From positions 62,001-126,000 of the forward strand of contig JAHBVU010000005.1 in assembly GCA_019637315.1 (NCBI GenBank): 64,000 nt of DNA. Direction: 5' to 3'. The notes under the pieces are model-generated. The model searched no databases. It was not told where the DNA came from and worked only from the letters and a program-made list of their open reading frames with translations. This stretch comes from Gemmatimonadales bacterium (GTDB lineage Bacteria > Gemmatimonadota > Gemmatimonadetes > Gemmatimonadales > GWC2-71-9). The translations under genes and the position numbers were made by a program. Within the stretch, counting starts at the first letter, position 1. Each line of letters opens with the position of its first letter. Positions 25,437 to 53,677 of the stretch are shown here, in pieces.

Positions 25437-25450
25437 AAGAACGCTCCTCG

Positions 25451-25487
25451 AAAATGAAAAGCCCCGCGCTCGTTCGAGGCGCGGGGC
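25451..25487 (-). terminator. Intrinsic terminator in the asd leader (attenuator)
   Basis: Reading on the minus strand, GCCCCGCGC (25487-25479) and GCGCGGGGC (25469-25461) make a perfect 9-bp GC stem with a 9-nt loop, followed by TTTTCATTTT. It ends 15 nt before the asd start codon, inside the transcribed leader and not after a gene, so it is positioned as an attenuator. Confidence 0.85.
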
Positions 25488-25515
25488 GTTGGACAATCCA
25501 GTCTGGTTACTTGCG

Positions 25516-25614: not shown

Positions 25615-25646
25615 GGCCGTCAAGCTAGTGAACGGACTCTCAGGCC

Positions 25647-25665
25647 GCAAGAGCCCCCCTCTTGC
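25647..25665. other. 7-bp hairpin upstream of the leader peptide
   Basis: GCAAGAG (25647-25653), five C, CTCTTGC (25659-25665). It lies about 33 nt upstream of the leader peptide start on the minus strand, so it is in the 5' untranslated part or at the promoter edge. Role unknown. Confidence 0.5.
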
Positions 25666-25753
25666 GCGATTGGCGGCCGCGCGTTAGCGTTGAGGGACAA
25701 TTGTTGGCTCGTGGCAATTTGCGGCATATTGCGGCCACGCTAAACAAACGCTA

Positions 25754-25811
25754 AAAAGCCACGCGCTCGCGTGTCTTTTGGCACCCGGGCGATTTTTGTT
25801 TGCCGGGTGCC
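25754..25811 (+). other. Two tandem hairpins upstream of thrC
   Basis: First: AAAAG-C-CACGCG (25754-25765), 2-nt loop, CGCGTG-T-CTTTT (25768-25779). Second: GGCACCCGG (25780-25788), a 14-nt T-rich loop, CCGGGTGCC (25803-25811). They abut each other and end 37 nt before the thrC start. They could be a terminator/anti-terminator pair or 5' stabilising structures; no leader peptide is seen on this strand. Confidence 0.5.
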
Positions 25812-25848
25812 TCGAGACGACGAGACGTGTGGGGATGGAGAGAGTCCC

Positions 25849-31913: not shown

Positions 31914-32687
31914 CTAGCGCTTGAACGCCGCGGCAATCGCGGCGCGAGCCGGCTCCGTCAGCACGAGGCCGCCGCTCATCGCTGCGCGCTTGGCGAGCAG
32001 CTCATCCCAACCTTCAGTGCCTTCCCAGAACACGGCCTTGATCCCCGCCATGGCCAGCGGGTTGCACGATGCCAGCCACGCGGCTCGTTTGGCGAGGGCG
32101 GCGTCCATCTCCGCCACGGAGGGGTGGACTTCGGCGTAGAGCGAGTGCTGCGCACCCCATTCGGCGGAGCGCCAGTCGGCGTCGACGCTCATCGCGGCGT
32201 AGGCGCCCAGCCCGATTTTCTTCTCGATGACCGGCCCCACCACGAACGGTCCGATCCCGACGGCGAGCTCGCTCAGCTTGAGTGCGGCGCCCGATGTGGC
32301 AATCGACCAGTCGGCTGCCGCGATCACGCCGATGCCGCCACCGGTCGCCTTGCCGTGGACGCGCGCCAGCACGAACTTGGGCGCGCGGATCATGGCCAGG
32401 ATCACTCCCGCAAAACCCGAGAAGAATCGCTGACCGGCTGCGGCATCATTGACGGCGCGGAGCTCGTCGAACGATGCGCCGGCGCAGAATGGCCCGGTGC
32501 CCTCGCTTCGCAGGACGATGACGCGGGCGGCGGGGTCGTTGCCGGCCTCCCGGATGGTGTCGGCAAGCTTGCCGAGCAGGGCGCCAGGAAGGGAGTTGCT
32601 CTTGGGGTGACCAAAGGTGATCGTGGCGATGCCGTCAGCCAGGGTGCTGGAGACGTTGCCGTCGTGAATCGGATCGGATGACACCAA
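31914..32687 (-). CDS. Enoyl-CoA hydratase/isomerase family protein
   Basis: 257 residues, crotonase fold. Oxyanion-hole region GPFCAGASFDELR (about 65-77), second site GKATGGGIGVIAAADW (about 112-127), and a C-terminal trimerisation helix from about 200. It hydrates or isomerises acyl-CoA thioesters; the exact reaction is not determined. It follows the GntR regulator by 19 nt and lies beside the catabolic operon on the opposite strand, so it may act on CoA products of that pathway. Confidence 0.85.
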   Translation of the reverse strand: MVSSDPIHDGNVSSTLADGIATITFGHPKSNSLPGALLGKLADTIREAGNDPAARVIVLRSEGTGPFCAGASFDELRAVNDAAAGQRFFSGFAGVILAMIRAPKFVLARVHGKATGGGIGVIAAADWSIATSGAALKLSELAVGIGPFVVGPVIEKKIGLGAYAAMSVDADWRSAEWGAQHSLYAEVHPSVAEMDAALAKRAAWLASCNPLAMAGIKAVFWEGTEGWDELLAKRAAMSGGLVLTEPARAAIAAAFKR

Positions 32688-32706
32688 ACCTCCCCATCAA
32701 AGTTGT

Positions 32707-33414
32707 TCAGTGCGCGTGGTTCGAGCCTCCGTTTCCGGCTCGCTCGAGCGCCGTCAGGACCTGTTCTTCCGACGCGACAAGGTGCGCGCCAAGCAAATCT
32801 CGACAGCCGTCCTGTTCGCCGCGCAGCAGCAGACCATACATGGCTCGATGGTCGTCCACCAGGCCGCCCAGGGTCGGCTCGGTCCGTGCGTCGAGCAGCG
32901 CCAGGCCGAGCCGCAGCTCGTCGAGGCTCGCCGTGAACGCCTGCTGGATCCGCTCGCTGCCGTGGAGACGGACCACAGCCTGGTGAAAGGCCAGGTCCGC
33001 CTCGATGATCGCCGCCGGGTCGTCGAAAGTCGCTGCCTGGGTCAGCTGCTCGATCGCGGCCCCGATTTCGTGGAACCCCTCCGCCGGCCGTCCTGTGCTG
33101 GCCTCGATGGCCGAGAGCTCGAACAGGCGGCGCATCCGGTAGAGATCTCTGACGCTGTCGGCCGAGAGCGTTGACACGGTGGCGCTGCGATGCCGCTGCA
33201 ACTGGACCAGCCCGCGCGCCGCCAGGATCTTGATCGCTTCGCGCAGCGTGTTTCGGGACACCTCGAGCGCCGCCGCGAGTTCGATTTCCGGGAGGCGGGT
33301 GCCGGGAGCAAGCTCGCCCCGGAGAATCCGGGATGCAAGCGTATGGGCTGCGATATCGGCCCGGTTGGCCTCGCCCAGTGAGCCGTTGGGTTGCCAGTCA
33401 GCTGGAGATGTCAT
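32707..33414 (-). CDS. GntR-family (FCD/FadR subfamily) transcriptional regulator
   Basis: 235 residues if started at ATG 33414; ATG 33468 would add 18 residues. N-terminal winged helix (about 20-75) with LPEIELAAALEVSRNTLREA, and an FCD ligand domain (about 100-225) whose metal-binding His residues appear in DLAFHQAVVRLHGS and DDHRAMYGLLLRG. FCD regulators bind small organic acids, often intermediates of the pathway they control. It is divergent from the ten-gene catabolic operon, and two palindromes lie between them. Confidence 0.9.
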   Translation of the reverse strand: MTSPADWQPNGSLGEANRADIAAHTLASRILRGELAPGTRLPEIELAAALEVSRNTLREAIKILAARGLVQLQRHRSATVSTLSADSVRDLYRMRRLFELSAIEASTGRPAEGFHEIGAAIEQLTQAATFDDPAAIIEADLAFHQAVVRLHGSERIQQAFTASLDELRLGLALLDARTEPTLGGLVDDHRAMYGLLLRGEQDGCRDLLGAHLVASEEQVLTALERAGNGGSNHAH

Positions 33415-33470
33415 CGCGCCTCGCGAGGTTGCTTGCCTCCGAGGCGCCCCGGGCAAGTGAGTTGCCATTT

Positions 33471-33482
33471 GATTGAACAATC
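33471..33482. promoter_or_regulatory. Operator-like palindrome B (GntR side)
   Basis: GATTGAACAATC is a perfect 12-nt palindrome, just upstream of the GntR coding region. It shares TTGAACAAT with site A on the other strand, as expected for two sites bound by one dimeric regulator. Confidence 0.6.
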
Positions 33483-33513
33483 TCCCTTCAATAAACAACC
33501 CGCGGTCAATGGC

Positions 33514-33541
33514 TTGCATGAAGTCCCTGTGAATATATCTT
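33514..33541 (+). promoter_or_regulatory. Possible promoter of the catabolic operon
   Basis: TTGCAT (33514-33519), 16 nt, TATCTT (33536-33541) in an unusually AT-rich stretch. Match to the sigma-70 consensus is only moderate. Site A begins 2 nt downstream, where it would overlap the transcription start. Confidence 0.4.
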
Positions 33542-33542
33542 A

Positions 33543-33555
33543 ATTGTTCAACAAT
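33543..33555. promoter_or_regulatory. Operator-like palindrome A (HpaB side)
   Basis: ATTGTTCAACAAT is a 13-nt perfect inverted repeat around a central C, 13 nt before the monooxygenase start codon. GntR/FCD operators are commonly short TTGT-n-ACAA palindromes, which this fits. A bound repressor would overlap the +1 region. Confidence 0.65.
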
Positions 33556-33567
33556 CAAGGTGCTAGA

Positions 33568-35046
33568 ATGAGCTCCCAGTCTCCGTCAGGAGCGCGAAGA
33601 GGGTCTCAAGTCATTGAAAGACTTCGAGATAGGCCGCCATCTCTGTGGCATCGCGGCGAGCCAGTAAAGGATCCTACAACTTCCCCTGGCTTTGCAGGCG
33701 GGGTCCGCACGCTGGCCCGCCTCTATGATCTGCAATGGCAGGATCCGGAGCGGACTCTCTTCGATTCCCCTGGCGGACCGTTTCGGGTTGGGCGCTCTTT
33801 TCAGAATCCGACCACCAGCGAGGACCTGAAGGCAGTCGGTCGGTCGATGGAGCACTGGACCGGCGCCACCTTGGGCATGATGGGACGGCTACCCGACTAC
33901 ATCAATCGGTCGATCTCGGGTTACGCAGCGGGTGCTGCGTTCCTGGGTGAAGCCGACCCGCGTTTCGGCGACAACATTCGGGCCTATCACGCCTATATCC
34001 GTGACCACGATCTCTGCCTGACCCATACGCTGAGCAGCCCGCAGGCCAATCGCTCGGTGCACGCGGCCATGCAGGCCGATCCGTTCCTGGCCGCCAAGGT
34101 CAAGGACGAGAACGACGCCGGGATCGTGGTACGCGGCTGCCGTATGCTTGCCACGCTGCCTGTTGCCGACGAGATCATGGTGTTTCCGTCGACGTTTCTC
34201 CGGAATACGGAGGAAGATCAGCGTTACGCGTACGCGCTTTCGATTCCGACGGATACGCCTGGCCTGCGCTTTCTCTGCCGGGAAACCGTGGACCATGGGC
34301 GTTCGCACTACGATCATCCCCTGGCCTCGCGGTTCGAGGAGAACGATGCGGTCGTGATCTTCGACGACGTCTTCGTGCCATGGGAGCGCGTCTTTCTCTA
34401 CCGCGATGTGGCCCGTTGCAATGCCGCCTACCAGAAGACCGGGGCGCTGGCGAACATGGCCCATCAGGTGCTGATCAAGAACATCGCCAAGACGGAGTAT
34501 CTCCTCGGCCTCGCGTCGATGATGGTCGACGCAATTGCCATCGAGCAATTCCAGCATGTCCAGGAGAAGCTGGCTGAGATCTGGGTCAATCTGGAAACGA
34601 TGCGCGCGTTCCGAGTTGCTGCGGAGGCCGGCGCCGCGCTCGACGAATATGGTGTGATGCGTCCGGTGTGGGATCCGCTCGACGCCGCTCGGAACCTGTA
34701 TCCGCGGCTCTACCCGCGGATGATCGAGATCATCCAGCAGCTCGGGGCAGCGGGTCTCGTTGCGATGCCGACCGAGGCGGACGTCAACGGACCGCTGATC
34801 GAGGATGTAAAGCGTTACTTTCAGGCGGCGCGCCTCGAAGCGCTCGACCGGATTCCCCTGTTCCGTCTGGCCTGGGACACCGCCATCTCGGCGTTCGGAA
34901 CACGGCAGGTACTGTACGAGCGGTACTTTTTCGGCGACCCGGTCCGGATGGCGGGTGCCTTGGTCAACAGCCACGATCGGACCGTATATATGGACAAGGT
35001 TCGCAGCTTCCTGGCCCGGGCCGCAACGGACGGCGACCTCGAGTGA
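33568..35046 (+). CDS. HpaB-family flavin-dependent aromatic monooxygenase
   Basis: 492 residues from ATG 33568 (AAGGTG upstream; the TTG at 33544 lies within the operator). The 4-hydroxyphenylacetate 3-hydroxylase N-terminal part is followed by the acyl-CoA dehydrogenase-like FAD domain; recognisable blocks include ALSIPTDTPGLRFLCRE, FDDVFVPWERVFLYRDV and TMRAFRVAAEAG. HpaB/TftD enzymes hydroxylate phenols ortho to an OH using FADH2 made by a separate reductase. The reductase gene is last in the same operon (41079). The phenolic substrate is unknown. First of ten tightly packed genes. Confidence 0.9.
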   Translation: MSSQSPSGARRGSQVIERLRDRPPSLWHRGEPVKDPTTSPGFAGGVRTLARLYDLQWQDPERTLFDSPGGPFRVGRSFQNPTTSEDLKAVGRSMEHWTGATLGMMGRLPDYINRSISGYAAGAAFLGEADPRFGDNIRAYHAYIRDHDLCLTHTLSSPQANRSVHAAMQADPFLAAKVKDENDAGIVVRGCRMLATLPVADEIMVFPSTFLRNTEEDQRYAYALSIPTDTPGLRFLCRETVDHGRSHYDHPLASRFEENDAVVIFDDVFVPWERVFLYRDVARCNAAYQKTGALANMAHQVLIKNIAKTEYLLGLASMMVDAIAIEQFQHVQEKLAEIWVNLETMRAFRVAAEAGAALDEYGVMRPVWDPLDAARNLYPRLYPRMIEIIQQLGAAGLVAMPTEADVNGPLIEDVKRYFQAARLEALDRIPLFRLAWDTAISAFGTRQVLYERYFFGDPVRMAGALVNSHDRTVYMDKVRSFLARAATDGDLE

Positions 35047-36020
35047 AGGTTGCCCTGCTCGGATCGCTCGCCACCGCTCAGCGTGAACGGCTCGAGGCCC
35101 TGGTCACCGAGCCGATCGAGTTCATTCCGCTGCCGGACGAGCTGCCGTACCAGGCAGTGGAGGCGGGCCTGCTCGAGGCGCGGGCTGCGATCTCGATGCG
35201 ATACGATCGCTCGATGCCTCAGGCGCCCCGGCTCGAACTGCTCCAGGTCGGCGGCGCCGGCTACGATGGAGTGGATCTGGAACACCTGCCGCGCGGATGT
35301 CAGGTGTGCAACGCCTACGGTCATGAAGTGCCGATCGCCGAGTATGTTGTGCTGGCGATGTTACAGTGGTGCTCACGGTTCATGGAGGCAGAGCGCTCCT
35401 TCCGGGTCGATGGTTCGTGGCACCTGGGCGGGCGGACCGCAGGACCATATCAGGACGAGCTGGCAGGAAAGACCGTTGGCATCCTGGGGTTTGGGCACAT
35501 TGCCCAGGCGCTGGTTCCGCGCGTCAAGGCAATGGATACGACGGTGATGGTGTGCAGTCGCACCGAGCGGTCGCTGCCGCCAGGAGTCGACTGGTTCGGA
35601 GGCGCTGCCCGACTCGACGACTTTCTTCCGCAGGTCGACTTCCTTGTCGTGACCGCTGCGCTGACGCCGGAGACGACGGGAATGATCGGTGCGCGCGAAC
35701 TGGCCTTGCTGCGCCCGACCGCGGTTGTGATCAACGTGGCGCGTGGTCAGATCATCGATGAGGATGCGTTGTACCATGCCCTGTCCTCGGCCCGAATTGG
35801 CGGTGCGATACTGGACGCCTGGTATCGGTATCCGACGCCGGAGTCTCCGGAGGTTCGGCCGTCGCGCCATCCCTTCCATGAGCTGGCCAATGTCTACATG
35901 ACGCCACATTCGTCGGCCTGGACGATCGGGATGGTGAATCGGCGCTGGGCCACCATCGCGTCCAATCTCGATCGGCTTGCTCGCGGTGAGCCGCTCCTCA
36001 ATGTGGTGCACCGAACATGA
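35043..36020 (+). CDS. D-2-hydroxyacid dehydrogenase (NAD-binding)
   Basis: 325 residues from GTG 35043, overlapping the previous stop by 4 nt. NAD-binding Rossmann motif GILGFGHIAQAL (about 145-156), catalytic Arg in NVARGQIIDEDAL, Asp/Glu region, and catalytic His in TPHSSAW near 292. It resembles glyoxylate/hydroxypyruvate reductase-type enzymes. In this operon it could reduce a 2-oxo acid released by the aldolase or oxidise a hydroxyacid intermediate; the direction is not known. Confidence 0.88.
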   Translation: MKVALLGSLATAQRERLEALVTEPIEFIPLPDELPYQAVEAGLLEARAAISMRYDRSMPQAPRLELLQVGGAGYDGVDLEHLPRGCQVCNAYGHEVPIAEYVVLAMLQWCSRFMEAERSFRVDGSWHLGGRTAGPYQDELAGKTVGILGFGHIAQALVPRVKAMDTTVMVCSRTERSLPPGVDWFGGAARLDDFLPQVDFLVVTAALTPETTGMIGARELALLRPTAVVINVARGQIIDEDALYHALSSARIGGAILDAWYRYPTPESPEVRPSRHPFHELANVYMTPHSSAWTIGMVNRRWATIASNLDRLARGEPLLNVVHRT

Positions 36021-36919
36021 CCGATCTCGTTGCGACCTGTGTGCTGCCCGTCGAGAACCACCTGGGCGAGAGTCCAATCTGGTGTGAGCTGCGGCAGCGG
36101 CTGTACTGGGTCGACACGCGTGCCCCGCTGATCTGGTGGTTCGAGCCGGACACGGGGGAGCACGGATCGGTCCCGTTGCCGGAGATGGTGGGGTCGATCG
36201 CCTTCGTAGTAGATCACGATCTGCTGCTTGCTGCGCTGGAGACTGCTTTCTGGCTGGTGAATCCTGAGACCGGAACGCTGGAGCCGTTTGCCTCGCCCGG
36301 CGATGTTCCGAACGGGCACCGGTTCAACGACGGCCGCGTCGATCGGGCCGGTCGCTTCTGGTGCGGCACGATGAACACCGGCGATCGGTCGCCGACCGGG
36401 TCGCTCTACCGTCTCGATCCCGACGGCCACGTCGAGCGATTCTTCAATGGGATCGTGGTGCCGAACAGCACGGCCTGGAGTCCCGACGGACGTCAGATGT
36501 ACTTCGCCGATACCTACCGCTTTCAGATCCAGGTGTTCGACTTCGACCTCGAGGCGGGACGGCTCGGCCCGGACCGGGTCCTGGTGGATCTGACCGGTCG
36601 ACCGGGGCGCCCCGATGGCTCGACGGTCGATGCGGAGGGCTGCCTCTGGAACGCCGAGTATAACGGCGGCCGCGTCGTGCGATACCGTCCGGACGGCACC
36701 GTCGATCGAATCGTCACACTGCCGGTACGCAACGCGACCTGCTGTGCCTTCGGCGGGCCGGCACTCGATACGCTCTACATCACCACGGCCTGGCAGCGGT
36801 TGACGCCGGAGGAGCGTGCGGAGCAACCCATGGCCGGCGGCTTGTTTGCGGTCAAGCCCGGTGTGACGGGGCTTCCTGAGCAGCGGTTCGGCCCGCTCGC
36901 GCGCGGGTCGCGGCGTTGA
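36017..36919 (+). CDS. SMP-30/gluconolactonase-family lactone hydrolase
   Basis: 300 residues, six-bladed propeller. Metal and catalytic residues lie in ENHLGESPIWC (Glu), FNDGRVDRAGRFWCGTM (Asn/Asp), PNSTAWSPDGRQMYFADT and GRPDGSTVDAEGCLWNA. The family opens sugar or other lactones with a divalent metal. Muconolactone-type substrates are possible in view of the ring-cleavage genes downstream; sugar lactones are possible in view of the GlucD-like gene. Overlaps the previous gene by 4 nt. Confidence 0.9.
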   Translation: MTDLVATCVLPVENHLGESPIWCELRQRLYWVDTRAPLIWWFEPDTGEHGSVPLPEMVGSIAFVVDHDLLLAALETAFWLVNPETGTLEPFASPGDVPNGHRFNDGRVDRAGRFWCGTMNTGDRSPTGSLYRLDPDGHVERFFNGIVVPNSTAWSPDGRQMYFADTYRFQIQVFDFDLEAGRLGPDRVLVDLTGRPGRPDGSTVDAEGCLWNAEYNGGRVVRYRPDGTVDRIVTLPVRNATCCAFGGPALDTLYITTAWQRLTPEERAEQPMAGGLFAVKPGVTGLPEQRFGPLARGSRR

Positions 36920-36920
36920 G

Positions 36921-37670
36921 ATGACGCGCCCGCTCACCGGACGCCTGGCGGCCCATCGCGTTGGAGTGCGTCCGGTGCCGCCGGTGCCGGATCGGGTGCT
37001 CGAGGTCTTTCGGGACATCAGCGATGCCTCGAGCGTCGTCTCCGATATTCTCGATGGGCTCGGTATGGCCGGCGCCGTGCCAGCCACCGTGCTGTGCCCG
37101 ACGGTACCGGGCTCCACCCTGGTCGGGCGGGCGCTCACGGTCCGACACATCGCTCGGGATGCGTCGCCACCGTCACCGGATGAAATCCAGCGACGCGTGC
37201 GTGAAGTTGATGTGCGCCTCGCTGATATCGAAGCACACAATCAGGCTGAGCCGGGCGATGTCCTGGTCGTTGCCGGTGTCTCAGGGATCTCGAGCATGGG
37301 GCGAATCTCGGCGGCCATCGGCTTGCGGCAGGGCGAAGCTGGCGCCATCGTCGACGGTGCCGTCCGCGATACTGTCTCGGTTGCTCGACTCGGCTATCCA
37401 GTCTGGTCGCGCGGGCGGAGCCCGATTACGGGGAAGTACCGTCTCGAGACCGTAGCCGTCAATCAGCCGGTCGATATCGCCGGAATCACCGTGCATCCTG
37501 GCGATCTCGTCATTGCCGATGACGCTGGAGTCGTGATTGTGCCGTACGCACTCGCAGCGCAGGTGGCGGATCGTGCCCTCGAACTCGAGCGGGCGGAAGC
37601 CGCGCGGCTGGTACGTATCGAAAAGGGCGAACCGGTACCCGATCTGGCCAAGGTGCCTCGTGCTCGATGA
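36921..37670 (+). CDS. RraA-family protein, probable class II-type pyruvate aldolase/decarboxylase
   Basis: 249 residues. The RraA fold motif GEAGAIVDGAVRDT (about 137-150, with the Arg-Asp metal and substrate pair) is followed by GYPVWSRGRSP and GDLVIADDAGVVIVP. Members with this motif include 4-carboxy-4-hydroxy-2-oxoadipate aldolase and oxaloacetate decarboxylase. Others (RraA itself) inhibit RNase E and lack the motif, so an enzymatic role is more likely. It could make pyruvate from the final intermediate of the pathway. A 1-nt gap separates it from the lactonase gene. Confidence 0.85.
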   Translation: MTRPLTGRLAAHRVGVRPVPPVPDRVLEVFRDISDASSVVSDILDGLGMAGAVPATVLCPTVPGSTLVGRALTVRHIARDASPPSPDEIQRRVREVDVRLADIEAHNQAEPGDVLVVAGVSGISSMGRISAAIGLRQGEAGAIVDGAVRDTVSVARLGYPVWSRGRSPITGKYRLETVAVNQPVDIAGITVHPGDLVIADDAGVVIVPYALAAQVADRALELERAEAARLVRIEKGEPVPDLAKVPRAR

Positions 37671-38325
37671 CCGGGTTCTCGTCCACGCCTCCGCAGTCGA
37701 GGTCGGCGGCGAGCTTGTCCTGGTCCTCGTGGATGACCGCAGCAACCAATGCGAGACCGTTACCACGAATGCTCCCGGCGTAGCCGATCGTCTCGGCGAG
37801 CGCCTCGTCCGGCAGCTCGACCGTCCCCTCCTCTCGGAGAACCAGCGCTGGGCGGACCGTCCGGCCCATGGCGGTCTCGACTGGATCGCCTTCTCGGCTG
37901 TCGAGACTGGCCTTGCGGCATTGAGCGCAGAGGCCGCCGGCATTCCACTCTCCTCGTGGCTGGGTGGTTCGCTTCGGAGTATGGACTCGATCGTTGATCC
38001 GGACACCCTGGGCGTGGACGGCCATGCGGTGGGCGATGCCAGCTTTGACGAGGTCGCAGCGTGGTTGCCCGAGGCGTCGGTGGCCTGGCTTCGAGTGGAT
38101 CCGCGCATATGGTCGGTTCCTGCGCTGCGACGGCTCGACGCCATGTGTCGCATCTTCCAGATCGGTATGGCCATCGAGCTACCGCCCGGCAGCGCGGCCA
38201 TGCCGATCGGGGTCGCAGTGCAGGAAGCTCTGCCGATGGCGACGCTCGGGCGGGGGGTGGAAATCCAACGGACGCCTGCGGAATCGCAGCGCCCTGTCTT
38301 CTCGATAGGCAGGGCGCCAGCATGA
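37660..38325 (+). CDS. Degenerate enolase-superfamily (MR/MLE-like) protein
   Basis: 221 residues from GTG 37660 (AAGGTG upstream), overlapping the aldolase gene by 11 nt. Residues about 55-125 resemble the alpha-barrel entry of mandelate racemase/muconate lactonising enzymes (VETGLAALSAEAAGIPLSSW then LGGSLRSM). There is no KxK base motif and no Asp/Glu/Asn metal triad, and the chain is about half of normal length. It might be a regulatory or structural relict, a partner of the next protein, or a decaying gene that is still open. The frame is intact with normal codon use. Confidence 0.6.
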   Translation: MLDDRVLVHASAVEVGGELVLVLVDDRSNQCETVTTNAPGVADRLGERLVRQLDRPLLSENQRWADRPAHGGLDWIAFSAVETGLAALSAEAAGIPLSSWLGGSLRSMDSIVDPDTLGVDGHAVGDASFDEVAAWLPEASVAWLRVDPRIWSVPALRRLDAMCRIFQIGMAIELPPGSAAMPIGVAVQEALPMATLGRGVEIQRTPAESQRPVFSIGRAPA

Positions 38326-39491
38326 GCTCCCGGCAGATCGGCCGCGTCCGCCTGTGGCGGGTGCGGATTCCGCTTCGGATGGTATATCTGAGTTCGATGT
38401 ACGTGATGCAGGACACCTTCCGTACGGTCATCGAGCTCGAGACGTCCGACGGCGCCTTCCGTGGCTACGGCGAAGCCCACGGCACGACCGAAGCTTTCCA
38501 ACTGGCCGAACAGCTGGCGACGGGGCTGGTTGGTGCGGACCCGTTCGATCGCCGAGTCGTCGAACGCCGCTTTGCGCGATCCGTTTTCGATAACCGCTTG
38601 GGTCGGACAGGCTGGTCTGTGGCGGGCGGGTTGGATCTTGCCCTCTGGGATCTCAGTGCTCGCCTTGCGGGCAGCTCGCTCGGTGGGATGCTTGGCGGTC
38701 GTTGCAGGGATGCCGTGCCCCTGGTGTGTCCCCTCCCTGCGCTGATGCTCGATCGCCCGATGCCGCGTGCCGAGGTGACCCGGCTGTTCAGCGATCTCGG
38801 CCGGGTCGATGCCGTCGTCGAGTATGCGGTACGGCAGGCCGAGCAGTACGGGTTTCGCTGCTTCAAGTACAAGAGTGCCGCGGTCAGCCCGGCCTTCGAC
38901 AGGGCTGTCATGGCCTCGCTCCGCCAGCGCTTTCCTGATGCCGCGCTCCGCTTCGACCCCAACGCGGGATATCCTCCAGCCGAAGCCATCGGGCTCTGCC
39001 AGTCGATGGATGACCTCGGACTCGAGTTCTTCGAGGACCCGACCGACGACCAGGCGGGGCTTGCCAGGCTGCGGAGCAAGGTGCGGACTCCGATCGCGAC
39101 CAACATGTGCATCATTCAGCCGGACCACCTGGCTGCCGCGGTGCGCAGCCGTCCGGTCGATGTCATTCTGGCCGATCTGTATCTCTGGGGCGGCGTCGGC
39201 AGGTTTCGTTCGCTGGTGCATGCAGCGGAGCCGCTCGGGTTCGAGGTTGCGATTCACAGCCTCTTCGAGACTGGAATCGGAACCGCGGCCAATCTCCAAC
39301 TTGCCGCGGCGTTTCCCGGGATCCGCCGAGCCAATGATTGCGGTTACCACGCGCTGAGCGAGGATGTCGTAACCGCCGAGCTGGCCATTCAGGACGGTGC
39401 CGTGAGGGTGCCAGCGGGTCCCGGCCTTGGCGTCGATCTCGACCAGGTCCGTATCGCCGGGATGGCTGTTCAGATGACGGAGGTTCGATGA
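38322..39491 (+). CDS. Enolase-superfamily acid dehydratase, GlucD-like
   Basis: 389 residues. Unlike its neighbour it has the full active site: KxK in FKYKSAA (about 180-185), metal ligands Asp in RFDPNAG, Glu in EFFEDPTDD, Asn in IATNMCI, a Asp in VILADLYLW and His in VAIHSLFETG. Asn as third ligand in ATNM is the mark of glucarate dehydratase-like enzymes, not of muconate cycloisomerase. These dehydrate sugar acids. The presence of such an enzyme in an aromatic operon is unusual. Overlaps both neighbours by 4 nt. Confidence 0.85.
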   Translation: MSSRQIGRVRLWRVRIPLRMVYLSSMYVMQDTFRTVIELETSDGAFRGYGEAHGTTEAFQLAEQLATGLVGADPFDRRVVERRFARSVFDNRLGRTGWSVAGGLDLALWDLSARLAGSSLGGMLGGRCRDAVPLVCPLPALMLDRPMPRAEVTRLFSDLGRVDAVVEYAVRQAEQYGFRCFKYKSAAVSPAFDRAVMASLRQRFPDAALRFDPNAGYPPAEAIGLCQSMDDLGLEFFEDPTDDQAGLARLRSKVRTPIATNMCIIQPDHLAAAVRSRPVDVILADLYLWGGVGRFRSLVHAAEPLGFEVAIHSLFETGIGTAANLQLAAAFPGIRRANDCGYHALSEDVVTAELAIQDGAVRVPAGPGLGVDLDQVRIAGMAVQMTEVR

Positions 39492-40204
39492 CGGGGCGTT
39501 CTGACGACCCGACCCAGCCGCCGCGCTCGGTGCCTGGCTATCGCAAGAGCCTGCTCAGGGCTCCGCAGGCGCTGCCGTGGCCGCGGCATGCGCCGGTTGA
39601 GGCGCCCGCGTCTTTTGGACCAGAGCTGGCCGCGTTTCCGCCGACTTGTGATCTGTCCGTGGTCTCCCCTGGTCGGCCGCGGGCGCTTGGTCAGCTGATT
39701 CTGGTAACCGGGCGGGTTCTGGACGAGTCGGGTCGACCGATTCGCCGCGCCCTGCTCGAATGCTGGCAGGCCAACTCGGCGGGCAAGTACATTCACGCGG
39801 CCGACCCGTCGCCGGTGCCTGTGGATCCCAACTTCGAGGGCGTCGGCCGGATCGTGACCGATGCGGAGGGCCGCTACCAGCTGCGCACGATCAAGCCTGG
39901 TGGGTACGCGGTCCCGTACGATGGCGAGGGACAGCTGGCGGGCTGGTGGCGCCCGCCGCACATCCACTTCTCCATCTTCGGCGACGGTTTTGGCAAACGG
40001 CTCGTGACCCAGATGTATTTTCCGGGCGAGCCGCTCAACCGATACGACCTGCTGCTCAACAGCATTCGGGACGATCGTGCCCGGGCCAGGCTGGTGTCCG
40101 TTTTCGATGCGGAGCTGTCGACGCCCGATGGTGCGCTGGGTTTCCGCCATGATTTCGTGCTGGGGGGCGGGCGAGAGACGCCTCTGGAGGACGATCACCC
40201 ATGA
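39488..40204 (+). CDS. pcaH: Protocatechuate 3,4-dioxygenase-like beta subunit
   Basis: 238 residues. The ferric-iron ligand set of intradiol dioxygenases is complete: Tyr in ANSAGKYIHAADP (about 99), Tyr in KPGGYAVPYD (about 140), and two His in RPPHIHFSIFG (about 158 and 160). It also has the beta-subunit N-terminal extension with GYRKSLLRAPQ. PCA 3,4-dioxygenase cleaves between the two OH groups to 3-carboxymuconate; catechols with other substituents are possible. The alpha subunit follows with a 4-nt overlap. Confidence 0.9.
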   Translation: MTGRSDDPTQPPRSVPGYRKSLLRAPQALPWPRHAPVEAPASFGPELAAFPPTCDLSVVSPGRPRALGQLILVTGRVLDESGRPIRRALLECWQANSAGKYIHAADPSPVPVDPNFEGVGRIVTDAEGRYQLRTIKPGGYAVPYDGEGQLAGWWRPPHIHFSIFGDGFGKRLVTQMYFPGEPLNRYDLLLNSIRDDRARARLVSVFDAELSTPDGALGFRHDFVLGGGRETPLEDDHP

Positions 40205-40737
40205 CGGGCACGGCATGGCACACCACGGGACCGTTCTTTCCGACAGCCTTCATCGGGCCGGCCGACGGCGATCTCACCGTTGGACGGGACGGGTCGCCGA
40301 TCGACGGCGACGCCATCGAGATTCACGGGCAGATCGTCGATGGTGAAGGCCAGCCGGTCGTCAATGTCATTGTCGAGCTGTGGCAGGCGGATCCGGCAGG
40401 CCGGCGTTCCGGAGCGACAGACCGCTTTCGGGGCTGGGGCCGAGTCTGGACGGACGGCAAAGGATGCTACCATTTTCGTACTTTCCGGCCCGGGCGACCG
40501 GAAGGATCGGTGCGGGCTCCGCATCTGTGTTTCCGGCTGCTCGGATCCGGGCTGATGCGCCCGCTCGAAACGGAGGCGTTCTTTCCCGACGAGACCGCGG
40601 CCGGCGATCCTCAGCTTGCGGCGATCGATGCTGCCCTGCGGAGCCGGTTGATGCTCGTGCCCGAGCCGACGCCGGGGCACTTTCGGTTCGACATCCGCCT
40701 TCGGGGCGAAGGCGAGACTCCTTTTCTGGAAGAGTGA
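40201..40737 (+). CDS. pcaG: Protocatechuate 3,4-dioxygenase-like alpha subunit
   Basis: 178 residues, a little shorter than typical PcaG. Fold motifs GDAIEIHGQIVDGEGQPV and VIVELWQADPAGRR are followed by APHLCFRLLGSGL, in which the His pair of the active subunit is not complete, as expected for the non-catalytic alpha chain. It contributes to the shared active-site pocket and so to substrate choice. Directly downstream of pcaH. No pcaB, pcaC or pcaD is in the window, so the usual beta-ketoadipate route is not encoded here. Confidence 0.87.
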   Translation: MTGTAWHTTGPFFPTAFIGPADGDLTVGRDGSPIDGDAIEIHGQIVDGEGQPVVNVIVELWQADPAGRRSGATDRFRGWGRVWTDGKGCYHFRTFRPGRPEGSVRAPHLCFRLLGSGLMRPLETEAFFPDETAAGDPQLAAIDAALRSRLMLVPEPTPGHFRFDIRLRGEGETPFLEE

Positions 40738-40740
40738 GGC

Positions 40741-41082
40741 ATGATCGTCGAGCAGCGGACCTACACGTTTCGGATGGGCAAGCTGGCTGAGTACCTCGCG
40801 GTGTACGAGGCGGAGGGGTTGCCAGTACAGCGAGAGTACCTGCCGCATTGCGTCGGCTATTATGTCACGGAGATCGGCCCGCTCAACCAGGTCGTGCATC
40901 TCTGGGCCTATCGAAGCTACGAGCATCGGACGGAGTGCCGCGAGCGGATGCGTGCCGACCCGCGGTGGCCCGGCTATCTCGCCAAGATCCACCCGTTGCT
41001 CGACAGTCAGGAGACGCGCTTGCTCAATCCGGCCCCGTTCTTTCGGCTCGAGGCGCTGCTGGAAGGTGGGCAGCCGCTGTGA
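40741..41082 (+). CDS. NIPSNAP-family protein
   Basis: 113 residues. The fold is a dimeric alpha-beta barrel: EQRTYTFRMGKLAEYLAVYE, VGYYVTEIGPLNQVVHLWAY and DPRWPGYLAKIHPLLDSQET are family signatures. Bacterial NIPSNAP proteins are frequent in catabolic operons, but their reaction is not established; some relatives in the ABM/EthD group are small monooxygenases or isomerases. Position between the dioxygenase and the flavin reductase suggests a supporting step in the ring-oxidation part. Confidence 0.85.
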   Translation: MIVEQRTYTFRMGKLAEYLAVYEAEGLPVQREYLPHCVGYYVTEIGPLNQVVHLWAYRSYEHRTECRERMRADPRWPGYLAKIHPLLDSQETRLLNPAPFFRLEALLEGGQPL

Positions 41083-41636
41083 CGATCGAGCCCGCTGCCT
41101 TTCGAGAGGCGATGAGCCAGTACCCGACGGGTGTCGTGGTGCTGGCTATTGCTGATGGCGGCGGGATACAGGGCATGACCATCGGTTCGTTCACCTCGCT
41201 GTCGCTCACCCCTCCACTGGTGCTGCTGTGCGTCGGTAAGCAGGCGCGGATGGGGTCTCTCCTCGCGTTCGGCCGACTCTGCAGCATCAACGTCCTGAGG
41301 GCGGATCAGCAGGCATTGTCAACCTATTATGCCGGCTCGTGGAAGGGCGAGTCGCCACCTCCGCACCGCTTCGTTCCGTGGGGCCACGTTCATCGGATGG
41401 AGGGAGCGGCCCTTGCGTTGTCATGTACCATCGCGGCAGTGCTCGATGGCGGCGATCACTACATCGTGACGCTCGAGGTCGGCGATCGCTGCCTCGGCCT
41501 GCCGCCACGTGAACCCCTCATCTTTCACGATCGGCGGTATCGGCGGATCGACCCGTCCGGTGGTGAGGACGCGCCGGACCTCGATCGCGCGGCCGGGGGC
41601 TCGCCTGCTCAGCTCTTTCACGACGCCTGGGAGTAG
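41079..41636 (+). CDS. Flavin reductase (HpaC-like) domain protein
   Basis: 185 residues from GTG 41079, overlapping the NIPSNAP stop. Flavin reductase signature FREAMSQYPTGVVVLAIADG, GMTIGSFTSLSLTPPLVLLC and SINVLRADQQALS. It reduces FMN or FAD with NAD(P)H and supplies it to a two-component monooxygenase. The obvious partner is the HpaB-type gene nine genes upstream. It closes the operon; about 160 nt follow before the next cluster. A C-terminal extension after residue 155 is not conserved. Confidence 0.87.
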   Translation: MTIEPAAFREAMSQYPTGVVVLAIADGGGIQGMTIGSFTSLSLTPPLVLLCVGKQARMGSLLAFGRLCSINVLRADQQALSTYYAGSWKGESPPPHRFVPWGHVHRMEGAALALSCTIAAVLDGGDHYIVTLEVGDRCLGLPPREPLIFHDRRYRRIDPSGGEDAPDLDRAAGGSPAQLFHDAWE

Positions 41637-41799: not shown

Positions 41800-43098
41800 A
41801 TGGTTGATCGGCCCGACCGTCCGATCCTGGTAACAGGAGCCAATGGCTTTCTGGGCCGGAGGGTTGTTCGTGCGCTGGTCGAGGCCGATCGGCCCGTTCG
41901 AGTACTGGTGCGCAGCGCCCCGGTCGACTCGGCGGTTGCCTCCGCGGAAGTCGTGCTCGGGGACGTTCGTGATCCGGCCGCAGTGCTGAAGGCGGTTCGA
42001 GGCTGCCGGTCGGTGGTCCACCTCGCGGCGGCCCTGCGTGACGAACCCGACAGTGAGGACGTCAATGTCGGGGGGGCGCGGCACCTGATCGCTGCCTGCC
42101 GGCAGGAGGAGGTGCCGCGCGTCGTTGTCGTGAGTACTCAGTCTGCTCGGATACCCCGCAAGGGAGCCTACGGCAGAACCAAGGCAGAAGCTGACGCGTT
42201 GTTCCGAGCGTCCGGGCTCGATGTCACGGTGCTCCATCTCAGCGTCGTGTACGGCGAAACCGGCGACGGCATCTTCGGAACCCTGCACCGATTCGTTCGC
42301 CGGCTTCCTGTGGTCCCTGTGCTGGGCAACGGACGGTGGCGTTCGGCGCCGGTCTATGTCGGCGATGTTGCGAGCCTGTTGGCGCAGTGTGCCGTCCGCC
42401 AGGGAACGCCAGCGACCGATTACGACATTGGCGGGCCGGATCAGGTCTCTCTCGACGAGCTGCTGGACCGGATCGGGGTTGCCTGCGGGGTGGGGATCCG
42501 ACCCAAGCTCCATGTGCCCTTCGGGCTCGCGCTTGCCGGTGCCCGCGCCCTGGCGATGGTCCTGCCGCGCCCGCCCGTTACCGTCAGCAATGTGCTCGGT
42601 TCCAACCAGGATACGGCGATGGATCTGGCCCGGGCTGGATACGATCTCGGCTTCGCGCCCATGTCGCTCGCCGATGGCTTGGATCGCATCTTTGGAACGG
42701 CTCTGCACCGCGAAGCCCGGATCCTGGGCGCATACCTCCTGGGTACGACGGTTCCTGAGGAGATCGTCGATCGGTACGTCGAGGCGCATCGCCGCTTGCT
42801 GCGTGACTCGGCTCCCGATCAGGTGACGGCGTTTGCCCTCCGTCATCCGCGCCTGATTGGTGCGCTCGATGCGGCCGGGGCGCTGGTCCGAACGCGAGAC
42901 GGTTTGCGGGATCGCCTGCTGATGCTGGCTGCGATACTCGAGGCGAGCGTGGAAACCACCGACCGATTCCTGCCGCAGTCGCGATCCCGTGCTGCCAGCA
43001 TTGCCACGCTGTTGGGCGTCGGCGTCATCGCCGTTGCTCGCGCATTGATTGGGTTCCCATTGCGCCGGTTTCTGCTTGCGCGGGGCGGGGCTGCATGA
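41800..43098 (+). CDS. NAD(P)-dependent epimerase/dehydratase (extended SDR) with C-terminal extension
   Basis: 432 residues. The Rossmann motif ILVTGANGFLGRRVVRAL is at the N-terminus; the active-site Tyr/Lys pair lies in GAYGRTKAEADALF (about 123-136). The SDR part ends near 290. A helical extension of about 140 residues follows, ending in a hydrophobic segment (SIATLLGVGVIAVARALIG), so the protein may be membrane-associated. Substrate: nucleotide sugar or hydroxyl/keto lipid, not determined. Overlaps the FAD-enzyme gene by 4 nt. Confidence 0.85.
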   Translation: MVDRPDRPILVTGANGFLGRRVVRALVEADRPVRVLVRSAPVDSAVASAEVVLGDVRDPAAVLKAVRGCRSVVHLAAALRDEPDSEDVNVGGARHLIAACRQEEVPRVVVVSTQSARIPRKGAYGRTKAEADALFRASGLDVTVLHLSVVYGETGDGIFGTLHRFVRRLPVVPVLGNGRWRSAPVYVGDVASLLAQCAVRQGTPATDYDIGGPDQVSLDELLDRIGVACGVGIRPKLHVPFGLALAGARALAMVLPRPPVTVSNVLGSNQDTAMDLARAGYDLGFAPMSLADGLDRIFGTALHREARILGAYLLGTTVPEEIVDRYVEAHRRLLRDSAPDQVTAFALRHPRLIGALDAAGALVRTRDGLRDRLLMLAAILEASVETTDRFLPQSRSRAASIATLLGVGVIAVARALIGFPLRRFLLARGGAA

Positions 43099-44723: not shown

Positions 44724-44810
44724 GGCCGTTGCCGAGGTCTGCTGTGAGTCGTAACGTGGTAGCGCGGTAAGCTGTGTTGAGGAGCTTGGAGTCCACTTGA
44801 GGAGCAACCT

Positions 44811-45995: not shown

Positions 45996-46002
45996 GGCCT
46001 GG

Positions 46003-47679: not shown

Positions 47680-47682
47680 AGC

Positions 47683-47700
47683 CACCTGCCGTGGCAGGTG
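47683..47700. other. Short hairpin after the glycosyltransferase cluster
   Basis: CACCTGCC (47683-47690), GT, GGCAGGTG (47693-47700): perfect 8-bp stem 4 nt past the stop codon of the preceding gene. No T-run follows, so it may be a factor-dependent terminator or an mRNA 3' end structure. Confidence 0.5.
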
Positions 47701-47789
47701 CACCAGTCCAGCTGCACGCGATTTCGTGTCGTGACTGTACCGTCGGCGGATGAGCCGCACTCTCGCCCCCTTTTCGGAACGGTGGCTGC

Positions 47790-49595: not shown

Positions 49596-49644
49596 AGCGG
49601 ATCAATGCTACTCGCGATGCAGCGACTATCGAACGAATGGAGCG

Positions 49645-51115: not shown

Positions 51116-51140
51116 GTTCCGCCGAACCGGAGGGATGGAG

Positions 51141-52103
51141 ATGGCCGCCGATAAGACGATGACCGAGGATCCGGTCAAAATGGCCGAGTTCGACGCCCGG
51201 ATCGATGCCGGTGAGACGATCGAGCCCAAGGACTGGATGCCGGAGAAGTACCGCCGGCAGCTGACCCGGATGATGTCCCAGCACGCCCATTCCGAAGTCG
51301 TCGGGATGCTCCCTGAGGGCAACTGGATTACCCGGGCGCCGAGCTTGCGCCGGAAGATGTCGCTCCTGGCCAAGGTCCAGGACGAAGCCGGCCACGGCCT
51401 CTATATCTATTGCGGTACCGAGACCCTCGGCACGTCCCGCGACGAGCTGATCGACCAGTACCTCTACGGCACCGCCAAGTATTCCAGCATCTTCAACTAT
51501 CCGACCCTGAGCTGGGCCGACATGGGTGTGATCGGCTGGTTCGTCGACGGCGCCGCCATCGTCAATCAGACCATGCTGGCCCATGCGTCCTACGGGCCGT
51601 ACGCCCGGGCCATGGTCCGGATCTGCAAGGAAGAGAACTTCCACAAGCGGCAGGGCTACGAGATCTGCGCCACCCTGGCCCGGGGCACCCCGGCCCAGAA
51701 GGCGATGGTTCAGGAGTCGGTCAACCGCTGGTGGTGGCCGTCGCTGATGATGTTCGGGCCCCACGACAAGGACTCGCCCAACAGCGGCGACCTGCTGCGC
51801 TGGAAGGTGAAGCAGAAGGGCAACGACGAGCTGCGCCAGCGGTTCATCAATCTGACGATTCCGCAGGTCAAGGCCATCGATCTGACGGTTCCCGATCCGG
51901 ACCTCCGCTTCGACGAGGCGTCGGGTAACTGGGAAATCGGGCCGATCGACTGGGACGAGTTCAAGCAGGTGCTGGCCGGCAACGGCCCGTGCAACAAGGA
52001 ACGGATCGCCGCGCGCCGGAAGGCGCACGAGGACGGGCAGTGGGTCCGCGATGCCGCCACGGCCTATGCGGCCAAGCGGCAGGGCGCAACCCAGGCCGCC
52101 TAA
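51141..52103 (+). CDS. paaA: Phenylacetyl-CoA epoxidase catalytic subunit PaaA
   Basis: 320 residues from ATG 51141, which has GGAGGG 6 nt upstream; the ATG at 51135 directly abuts the same site. Ferritin-like di-iron protein with [20 protein letters not shown] and [20 protein letters not shown], carrying Glu/His ligands (ExxH in EAGHG). PaaA with PaaC, B and E converts phenylacetyl-CoA to its 1,2-epoxide, the ring-activating step of aerobic phenylacetate breakdown. First gene of paaABCD. Very high identity to family motifs makes this certain. Confidence 0.97.
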
Positions 52104-52117
52104 CGCTACGAGGAGAT

Positions 52118-52420
52118 ATGGCGACGGAATCGACCGAACGCAACGAATGGCCGCTCTGGGAAGTCTTTACCCAGCCGCCGAACGGTAAGCCTCACGAGCA
52201 TGCAGGCAGCGTCCACGCTCCCGATGCGGAAATCGCCCTGCAGAACGCGCGCGACGTCTACACCCGTCGCGGCGAAGCCGTGAGCCTGTGGGTGGTGCCG
52301 AGCGTAGCTATCGTCGCGTCCGCGCCGAGCGACGCCGGGCCGTTCTTCGATCCGGGCAACGACAAGGCCTATCGCCATCCGCAGTTCTACAAGATTCCAC
52401 GCGGCGTGCGGGGCGTTTGA
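52118..52420 (+). CDS. paaB: Phenylacetyl-CoA epoxidase subunit PaaB
   Basis: 100 residues from ATG 52118 (AGGAGAT upstream). Small alpha/beta subunit with NEWPLWEVFTQPPNGKPHEH, GSVHAPDAEIALQNARDVYT and SLWVVPSVAI. It stabilises the PaaA-PaaC core and is the docking part for the reductase. Lies 14 nt after paaA and 1 nt before paaC. Confidence 0.95.
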   Translation: MATESTERNEWPLWEVFTQPPNGKPHEHAGSVHAPDAEIALQNARDVYTRRGEAVSLWVVPSVAIVASAPSDAGPFFDPGNDKAYRHPQFYKIPRGVRGV

Positions 52421-52421
52421 C

Positions 52422-53174
52422 GTGTCGGCCTCTCTCTTCGAGTTCCTCCTCCGTCTGGGCGACGACCGCCTGATCCTGGGCCACCGCAACGCCGAGTGGT
52501 GCGGGCACGGTCCGATCCTGGAAGAGGACATCGCGATCACCAACATCGCGCTCGACCTGACCGGCGCTGCCCAGCTGCTGCTGGACCTGGCCGGCCGAGT
52601 CGAGGGTCAGGGCCGAGACGCCGACGCGCTGGCCTACTGGCGCGACGAGACGCAGTTCCGCAACCTGCAGATGGTGGAGCTGCCCCGCGGCGATTTTGCC
52701 TTCACCATGGTGCGGCAGCTCTTCTTCTCAGCGTGGACTCATTTCCACTTCGAGTGGCTCAAGGGATCGGCGCACGAGGAACTCGCCGGCATTGCCGCCA
52801 AGGCGCAGAAGGAAAATCGCTACCATCTACGTCATGCTGGTGAGTGGGTAGTGCGCCTGGGCGACGGCACCGAGGAGAGTCACCGCCGTGCTCAGGAAGC
52901 GGTTGACGCGCTCTGGCCCTGGACCGACGAGATGTTTGCGACGGACGCCGTCGATCAGGCTGCCGAGGCCGAACTCGGTCTGCCGGCTCGGCCCGATCTC
53001 AAGGCGGAATGGCGTGCGGTCGTGCTCGAGGTGCTCGGTCGGGCGCGGCTGACCGTTCCCGAGGCGCCGATGCGGATGACCGGCGGTCGCAAAGGACGGC
53101 ACACCGAATCGCTTGGACCCCTCCTGGCCGAGATGCAGATCGTGCCCCGGTCGCATCCGGGCGCAACATGGTAG
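52422..53174 (+). CDS. paaC: Phenylacetyl-CoA epoxidase structural subunit PaaC
   Basis: 250 residues from GTG 52422. Ferritin-like fold: LLRLGDDRLILGHRNAEWCG, ITNIALDLTGAAQLLLDL and NRYHLRHAGEWVVRLGDG. PaaC pairs with PaaA in a heterodimer but does not carry out the chemistry itself. It overlaps paaD by 7 nt. Confidence 0.95.
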   Translation: MSASLFEFLLRLGDDRLILGHRNAEWCGHGPILEEDIAITNIALDLTGAAQLLLDLAGRVEGQGRDADALAYWRDETQFRNLQMVELPRGDFAFTMVRQLFFSAWTHFHFEWLKGSAHEELAGIAAKAQKENRYHLRHAGEWVVRLGDGTEESHRRAQEAVDALWPWTDEMFATDAVDQAAEAELGLPARPDLKAEWRAVVLEVLGRARLTVPEAPMRMTGGRKGRHTESLGPLLAEMQIVPRSHPGATW

Positions 53175-53677
53175 CGATCCGGTCACCCGAGGTCGAGCGG
53201 GTCTTCGAGATCCTGCATGAGGTCAAGGATCCCGAAGTACCCGTCATCGACGTGGTCGAACTCGGCATCGTCCGCTCCGCCCAGGTCGAGGGCAATCGCG
53301 TGACGGTGTTGGTGACACCGACCTATTCCGGGTGCCCCGCCACCAAGGTGATCGAACGGGACATAGCCGAGGCGCTCAAACGGCACGGTTTCGAGGACGT
53401 GACGGTCAGGACGGTGTTCACGCCGCCTTGGACCACCGACTGGATCACGGCCGACGCGAGGGAAAAGCTGCGGGCCTACGGCATCGCCCCGCCCGGTCCG
53501 GTTGGGCCCGGCGGCCTCGAGCTGGTGCCGCTCGGCGGGCCGACCCGGAGCATCGCCTGTCCCTACTGCGGTTCGAAGGATACCCGCCGCGAAAGCGAGT
53601 TCGGGTCGACCGCCTGTAAAGCGATCCACGTTTGCCACGCCTGCCACCAGCCGTTCGAGTACTTCAAGCCGATCTGA
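53168..53677 (+). CDS. paaD: PaaD, Fe-S/di-iron assembly factor for the epoxidase
   Basis: 169 residues from ATG 53168. A MIP18/DUF59-like N-terminal domain (EILHEVKDPEVPVIDVVELG, TPTYSGCPA) precedes the zinc-ribbon C-terminus with CPYCGSK and CHACHQPFEYF. PaaD is required for a functional epoxidase, presumably for cofactor maturation. The next expected gene, paaE for the reductase, does not follow; an unrelated lipoprotein gene does. Confidence 0.94.
   Translation: MVAIRSPEVERVFEILHEVKDPEVPVIDVVELGIVRSAQVEGNRVTVLVTPTYSGCPATKVIERDIAEALKRHGFEDVTVRTVFTPPWTTDWITADAREKLRAYGIAPPGPVGPGGLELVPLGGPTRSIACPYCGSKDTRRESEFGSTACKAIHVCHACHQPFEYFKPI

Follow-up and report, generated by a model that had tools for sequence, protein, structure and literature searches.

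The window analyzed here is a 64,000-nucleotide stretch of DNA from a Gemmatimonadales bacterium (contig JAHBVU010000005.1, positions 62,001 to 126,000), and it carries a ten-gene operon that joins a hydroxylase of the HpaB family to an intradiol ring-cleavage dioxygenase (PcaHG) and an enolase-superfamily enzyme resembling glucarate dehydratase (GlucD). We regard it as an evenly balanced proposition that this operon encodes an ortho route for the catabolism of 4-hydroxyphenylacetate (4-HPA), displacing the meta pathway (HpaD, HpaH) found in sister species. A fuller version of the proposal, which we put forward tentatively and judge slightly more doubtful than not, is that the operon represents a new bacterial ortho route for homoprotocatechuate common to Gemmatimonadota and Acetobacteraceae. 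In this route, a distinct intradiol clade and a GlucD-like enolase with a half-barrel partner would replace PcaBCD, and a 3-hydroxy-3-substituted glutarate would be split by an enzyme of the RraA or 3-hydroxy-3-methylglutaryl-coenzyme A (HMG-CoA) lyase type. We infer both the identity of the substrate and the steps that follow ring cleavage.

Core and ring-cleavage modules in the genus

Six genomes of the genus were compared, namely that of the window and five others (G001 to G005). A core module consisting of HpaB, the D-2-hydroxyacid dehydrogenase DhD, a flavin reductase (FlavR) and a crotonase occupies one locus in all six genomes, while the GntR regulator was matched at this locus in five and had no match at the G005 locus (L056). 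The module-bearing genomes (window, G001 and G004) have a seven-gene insert (SMP-30, RraA, orf5, enolase, PcaH, PcaG and NIPSNAP) between DhD and FlavR; its continuity in G001 and G004 is presumed, as each locus is split over two contigs that end inside RraA. In G002, G003 and G005 the flavin reductase directly follows DhD, with no insert between them. Scores above the cut-off of the HpaD (homoprotocatechuate 2,3-dioxygenase) model were confined to G002, G003 and G005, the genomes without the insert, and matches to an HpaH query from the G005 meta cluster (E <= 1e-10) were confined to the same three. Since the insert is present in three of the six genomes and HpaD and HpaH in exactly the other three, the gene content suggests that the insert probably replaces meta cleavage by ortho cleavage of homoprotocatechuate. 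It is possible that an HpaD/HpaH locus was overlooked in all three module-bearing genomes, though this is unlikely given that these genomes are 95% (window genome), 94% and 84% complete.

The ten plus-strand genes (33568-41636) follow one another with gaps of -4, -4, 1, -11, -4, -4, -4, 3 and -4 nt, where the value of -11 hinges on the GTG start picked for orf5. In operon order, their Pfam domains are HpaB_N/HpaB, 2-Hacid_dh, SGL (SMP-30), RraA-like, none (orf5), MR_MLE_N/C, Dioxygenase_C twice, NIPSNAP and Flavin_Reduct. Coordinates and domains confirm the first-pass annotation of a tight ten-gene operon with gaps of 3 nt or less, accompanied by a divergent GntR regulator and a crotonase; the D-2-hydroxyacid dehydrogenase, the NIPSNAP protein and the Pfam-less orf5 were missing from its title. 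While the gene set and its contiguity stand, the description as a single operon is refined to two modules, a core present in all six genomes and a ring-cleavage insert present in three. Conservation of the neighbourhood, which that annotation had left to be checked, was found: the same genes recur in the same order in G001 and G004, so the arrangement is not a matter of chance. The features are as follows.

31914..32687, minus strand: EchA, enoyl-CoA hydratase/isomerase family (crotonase), core module; PF00378 4e-24; 72-81% identity to the other five genus genomes; no NCBIfam equivalog above cut-off
32707..33468, minus strand: divergent GntR/FCD regulator, core module; PF00392, PF07729; match at the locus in five of six genus genomes
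33568..35046, plus strand: HpaB, 4-hydroxyphenylacetate 3-monooxygenase oxygenase, core module; TIGR02309
35043..36020, plus strand: DhD, D-2-hydroxyacid dehydrogenase family, core module; PF02826/PF00389; six of six genus genomes
36017..36919, plus strand: SMP-30/regucalcin-type lactonase, ring-cleavage module; PF08450 2e-84
36921..37670, plus strand: RraA-family protein of aldolase/decarboxylase type, ring-cleavage module; PF03737 2e-28
37660..38325, plus strand: orf5, 221 aa, start uncertain, ring-cleavage module; no Pfam or NCBIfam match
38322..39491, plus strand: MRMLE, GlucD-like enolase-superfamily enzyme, ring-cleavage module; PF13378/PF02746
39488..40204, plus strand: PcaH-like intradiol dioxygenase beta subunit of the V449/L491 clade, ring-cleavage module; PF00775 2e-41
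40201..40737, plus strand: PcaG-like intradiol dioxygenase alpha subunit, ring-cleavage module; PF00775 3e-15
40741..41082, plus strand: NIPSNAP-family small protein, proposed isomerase, ring-cleavage module; PF07978 1e-27
41079..41636, plus strand: FlavR, flavin reductase, proposed HpaB partner, core module; PF01613 7e-26; six of six genus genomes
51135..53677, plus strand: paaABCD, phenylacetyl-CoA epoxidase genes (paaA 51135-52103, paaB 52118-52420, paaC 52422-53174, paaD 53171-53677)

The approximately 9 kb between the flavin reductase and paaA (41800-51000) hold genes of the epimerase, oxidoreductase, GT2 and X-Pro peptidase families. A lipoyl-type 2-oxoacid dehydrogenase acyltransferase (E2; 56009-57175) lies 2.3 kb from paaD in the window and adjoins paaD in G001, G004 and G005. 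Elsewhere in the window (23047-27102), an amino-acid kinase with an ACT domain, a semialdehyde dehydrogenase and a pyridoxal phosphate enzyme (PALP) are grouped in what we take to resemble a threonine pathway.

HpaB was detected in seven of the 395 genomes of the phylum (E <= 1e-20), six of which make up the whole genus set (the query itself and the others at 81-84%), with the seventh at 29%. The window protein passes the TIGR02309 equivalog model (625.5 bits, cut-off 480.2) and is 51.5% identical to Thermus HpaB (2YYG). Residues R100, Y104, H142, S197 and T198 (Thermus HpaB numbering), which we take to be those contacting 4-HPA in the Thermus structure, are identical in all six genus sequences. 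Only six fixed differences separate the HpaB of module-bearing from that of meta-bearing species, none of them at these five residues, so both groups probably share one hydroxylase product. The notion that HpaB was altered along with the insert was dropped on this comparison. FlavR falls below the cut-off of the HpaC model TIGR02296 (52.6 versus 205.95 bits) and matches Pfam Flavin_Reduct. The earlier suggestion of a two-component hydroxylase followed by intradiol cleavage is supported.

All four paaABCD genes score above NCBIfam equivalog cut-offs in the window, and they lie 3' of FlavR on the same strand in all six genus genomes, although only paaA and part of paaB were within the stretch covered in G003. 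The distance from FlavR to paa is approximately 120-230 bp in G001, G004, G002 and G005, approximately 6 kb in G003 and 9.5 kb in the window. Together, HpaB and the linked paaABCD point to a (hydroxy)phenylacetate context. The phenolic acid originally proposed as substrate can be narrowed to a likely homoprotocatechuate on the basis of the exclusion of HpaD and HpaH, HpaB membership and paaABCD linkage.

The dioxygenase clade and its enolase partner

PcaH retains Y408, Y447, H460 and H462 (P. putida numbering), presumably its iron ligands, and the alignment bears out the prediction that all four are present. The position of P. putida W449 is occupied by V in all 12 enolase-linked PcaH sequences (window, G001, G004 and nine Acetobacteraceae) and also in an unlinked PcaH on a Paracoccus marcusii plasmid, and L takes the place of I491 in 11 of these 13 V449-type proteins. 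Both W449 and I491 are kept in all nine comparison sequences, including the G005 enzyme and two Roseomonas plasmid copies adjoining pcaD. The 13 V449-type sequences fall on one side of a branch with support of 100/99. Against the curated model TIGR02422 (cut-off 296.4 bits), the window PcaH scored 217.4 bits; the five V449-type sequences tested, of 13, were all below the cut-off (195-236 bits), while the eight W449-type sequences tested, of nine, were all above it (326-365 bits). The window PcaG is also below the cut-off of its model (TIGR02423; 121.3 versus 126.25 bits). Positions 449 and 491 presumably line the substrate pocket, which the V449/L491 combination may enlarge to accommodate a longer side chain; literature searches returned nothing on the contacts of these two residues. 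On the Paracoccus marcusii plasmid (L097, 11710-13040), the V449-type PcaHG adjoins an IS1182 transposase and has no matching enolase within 24 kb.

The absence of pcaB noted in the first-pass annotation holds for the window's own genome, where the best score against TIGR02426 is 124.8 bits (cut-off 355.75). Only G005 among the six genus genomes passes this model (360.1 bits), and it has a separate W449 PcaH on the same contig. Neither pcaC nor pcaD was found in the operon by Pfam scan, the rest of the genome not having been searched for these two genes.

In the enolase, K182-x-K184, D212, E238, N261, D285 and H312 are invariant in four sequences from two phyla, and we take them to be the GlucD-like catalytic set, comprising the KxK motif, a His-Asp pair and three metal ligands. 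A mandelate-racemase reading was dropped because the third metal-ligand position is Asn, presumably as in GlucD. The window enzyme is below the cut-offs for both muconate cycloisomerase (TIGR02534; 102.2 versus 334.95 bits) and glucarate dehydratase (TIGR03247; 94.3 versus 828.7 bits). The residue set and the score far below the TIGR02534 cut-off agree with its earlier assignment as GlucD-like rather than of the muconate-cycloisomerase type.

A scan of the contigs of 84,980 species with the enolase alignment returned three loci, two of this genus and one in Roseomonas sp. KE2513 (50%); it used only two peptide patterns and hence was insensitive. Matches were present in 15 of 299 Acetobacteraceae genomes, KE2513 among them, and in one of 398 sampled genomes of the KE2513 phylum, which was KE2513 itself. 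PcaH and PcaG are directly beside the enolase in eight of the 14 new Acetobacteraceae loci, or nine of 15 when KE2513, in which a thiamine diphosphate (ThDP) enzyme gene split between frames sits between the enolase and PcaHG, is counted. Overall, 12 of 18 loci from the genus and the Acetobacteraceae have PcaHG beside the enolase. Several of the nine Acetobacteraceae loci with the pair end at contig ends, which bears on all of their neighbour counts: a MarR gene adjoins PcaG in eight, RraA-like and ThDP enzymes are nearby in five, SucC/SucD-like genes occur in four, and HMG-CoA-lyase-like (HMGL-like) genes and Rieske oxygenases in three each. Two Amidohydro_2-type proteins are encoded near the cluster in three Acetobacteraceae loci, L114 (12408-14569), L115 and L119. 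Plasmid searches with the window PcaH, DhD, enolase, RraA, HpaB, NIPSNAP and orf5 found the cluster in none of the regions examined (one of them unannotated), searches with the Roseomonas enolase and PcaH piece found it in none of the records examined, and a scan of viral contigs found nothing. NIPSNAP and DhD were dropped as plasmid markers of the operon because their relatives sit in unrelated clusters.

Homologues of orf5 occur 5' of the enolase in two sister species and KE2513 (L020, L021 and L074) at 21-35% identity. In nine of 11 Acetobacteraceae enolases (the exceptions being L117 and L120), a same-frame N-terminal extension scores higher, against an orf5 profile built from four sequences, than all scores that came back for 550 shuffled sequences. 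Modelled by itself with AlphaFold, orf5 gave a poor structure (predicted local distance difference test, pLDDT, of 44.9), which was set aside for the fold search. The model of the fused form in L121 (pLDDT 73.7) contains an N-terminal beta/alpha half-barrel at approximately residues 107-195, and in a fold search its enolase part was closest to 2OQH/4DYE. We propose that orf5 is a shortened, probably non-catalytic relative of the enolase that aids it. The E. coli GlucD-GlucDRP heteromer (4GYP) likewise pairs an enolase with a related partner protein; however, orf5 is only about 220 aa long, has no family match, and its partnership with the enolase is putative.

Proposed route and competing explanations

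HpaB and FlavR would convert 4-HPA to homoprotocatechuate, as their family membership suggests, and the V449-type PcaHG would cleave this product between its hydroxyls to give 3-(carboxymethyl)-cis,cis-muconate. At the substituted double bond, the GlucD-like enolase, together with orf5, may then add either a carboxylate or water. SMP-30, which aligns with regucalcin 3G4E over most of its length, would open any lactone. The expected product, 3-hydroxy-3-(2-carboxyvinyl)glutarate, resembles 3-hydroxy-3-methylglutarate in being a tertiary alcohol and would be split by a carbon-carbon lyase. This likeness would explain the CoA-ligase and HMG-CoA-lyase-like neighbours in Acetobacteraceae, where a SucC/SucD-type CoA ligase and an HMG-CoA-lyase-type enzyme could produce acetyl-CoA and maleylacetate. 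In the genus of the window, RraA, the sole candidate lyase in the window, may take this place.

Several observations weigh against this route. PcaHG does not accompany this or a related enolase in six of the 18 loci. Roseomonas KE2513, which has the enolase-PcaHG pair, has no HpaB match in its genome, indicating that the PcaH clade is not tied to HpaB and that the KE2513 substrate arrives another way. A general HMG-CoA lyase is present in all six genus genomes and so does not discriminate among them, for which reason it was dropped as a genus marker. In addition, there are only six genomes, among which a split such as that between the insert and HpaD/HpaH would arise by count alone with a chance of 1 in 20, kinship ignored. 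The tree of four core proteins pairs G001 with G004 at 100 but leaves the grouping of the three module-bearing species unsettled; with support of 63-66% for the remaining splits, the exclusion may reflect one event or more. Finally, the proposed chemistry assigns no firm role to RraA, NIPSNAP or DhD. NIPSNAP shares 76-79% identity with its counterparts in the two other module-bearing species and has no match in the three genus genomes without the module. In DhD, LDAWYRYP stands in place of the E-P motif of glyoxylate reductase, which presumably holds the catalytic Glu; the Tyr variant occurs in five of six genus sequences, the pattern is unmatched in the sixth, and the reaction may be unusual. 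The order of lactonase, dehydratase and aldolase, with pyruvate or oxaloacetate as end product, that the first-pass annotation put forward is likewise conjectural. RraA-type aldolases require a 2-oxo acid, and a simple catechol acid does not yield one directly, so RraA would lack its usual substrate; either another step makes one, or RraA decarboxylates a beta-oxo acid, or the ring has a third hydroxyl.

The last of these options leads to a rival that we consider unlikely but worth serious attention, in which the substrate is a trihydroxy acid, either gallate or the 3,4,5-trihydroxyphenylacetate produced by a second HpaB hydroxylation. Intradiol cleavage would give a 4-oxalomesaconate-type 2-oxo acid, after which SMP-30 would open a pyrone, NIPSNAP would tautomerise, the enolase would hydrate, and RraA would cut a 4-carboxy-4-hydroxy-2-oxoadipate-type acid into pyruvate and an oxo acid. 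Every insert gene would then be used and RraA would receive its normal 2-oxo substrate; oxalomesaconate hydration, as alpha-H/beta-OH chemistry, would suit an enolase-superfamily dehydratase, and the RraA-like genes (five of nine) and Rieske oxygenases (three of nine) near the Acetobacteraceae pair are consistent with such a scheme. However, all NCBIfam matches of the window RraA are under their cut-offs, with scores far below the 304.5 bits of the 4-carboxy-4-hydroxy-2-oxoadipate (CHA) aldolase model (LigK, TIGR02798) for both the window protein (74.7 bits) and the Acetobacteraceae RraA-like protein (119 bits). Moreover, HpaB is unchanged at the presumed binding residues and gives no hint of a new substrate, and the CoA-ligase and HMGL neighbours would be left unexplained.

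Two further explanations appear improbable, to the same degree. PcaHG could be an ordinary protocatechuate 3,4-dioxygenase serving a beta-ketoadipate route with its later steps encoded at other sites of the genome, as the PcaH-PcaG subunit order and iron ligands match the classical enzymes; but the protein misses the curated protocatechuate model and falls in a separate clade, and pcaB, the one later gene searched for across the genomes, is above cut-off only in G005, the genome with its own W449 PcaH. It is also conceivable that one promoter drives two unrelated routes, an aromatic oxidation (HpaB, PcaHG, FlavR) and a sugar-acid route (SMP-30, GlucD-like dehydratase, RraA aldolase, DhD), with an aryl glycoside or ester as a conceivable starting compound. 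A lactonase, an enolase-type dehydratase and an aldolase form the classic sugar-acid trio, and DhD relatives occur in sugar-acid-like clusters on the two plasmids examined. Nevertheless, the linkage of the enolase to PcaHG in 12 of 18 loci and the coming or going of the insert as a block, opposite to HpaD/HpaH, argue against this explanation.

Relation to known systems and implications

The operon shares features with several characterized systems and departs from each. With the homoprotocatechuate meta pathway (HpaBC, HpaD-HpaE-HpaF-HpaG-HpaH-HpaI), whose HpaD and HpaH are carried by the sister species, it has in common the HpaB family and, probably, the same catechol acid, while the three module-bearing genomes lack HpaD and HpaH and have an intradiol enzyme in their place. 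The protocatechuate branch of the beta-ketoadipate pathway (PcaHG, PcaB, PcaC, PcaD) shares the PcaHG family, subunit order and iron ligands; however, the V449/L491 clade is under the curated cut-off, no pcaB is above cut-off in the window genome, and a GlucD-like enolase and SMP-30 stand where PcaB/C/D would be expected. The glucarate dehydratase/mandelate racemase subgroup that includes 2OQH/4DYE (titled isomerase or putative sugar isomerase) has the KxK motif, His-Asp pair and D/E/N metal-ligand pattern, with presumed roles, and matches in fold, but the L121 homologue is only about 33% identical to 2OQH/4DYE, and the present enzymes are linked to PcaHG with the orf5 domain alongside or fused. 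Muconate cycloisomerases of the CatB/TfdD type belong to the same superfamily and would likewise act on a muconate, yet the window enolase is well short of their model. The CHA aldolases LigK/ProA/GalC share the RraA fold family and differ in the score reported above.

Within the open-licence literature searched, including passages of PMC12918735, PMC10512348, PMC7118221 and PMC3534580, no description was found of homoprotocatechuate ortho cleavage by a PcaHG-type enzyme, in line with the first-pass annotation, whose author knew of no such route. PMC12918735 does use the wording "homoprotocatechuate ortho cleavage route", yet the genes it names are hpaAGEDFHI, which we read as meta-pathway genes.

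If the proposal is correct, meta cleavage would be joined by a second aerobic route for homoprotocatechuate, a compound that serves as a hub for tyrosine and for lignin-related aromatic acids, and some proteins now named protocatechuate 3,4-dioxygenase would fall into a distinct clade that acts on a different substrate. Through its pairing with PcaHG, the unassigned enolase group near 2OQH/4DYE also acquires a testable substrate. Within a single genus, the exchange of meta and ortho modules behind one hydroxylase would represent a clean case of pathway replacement.

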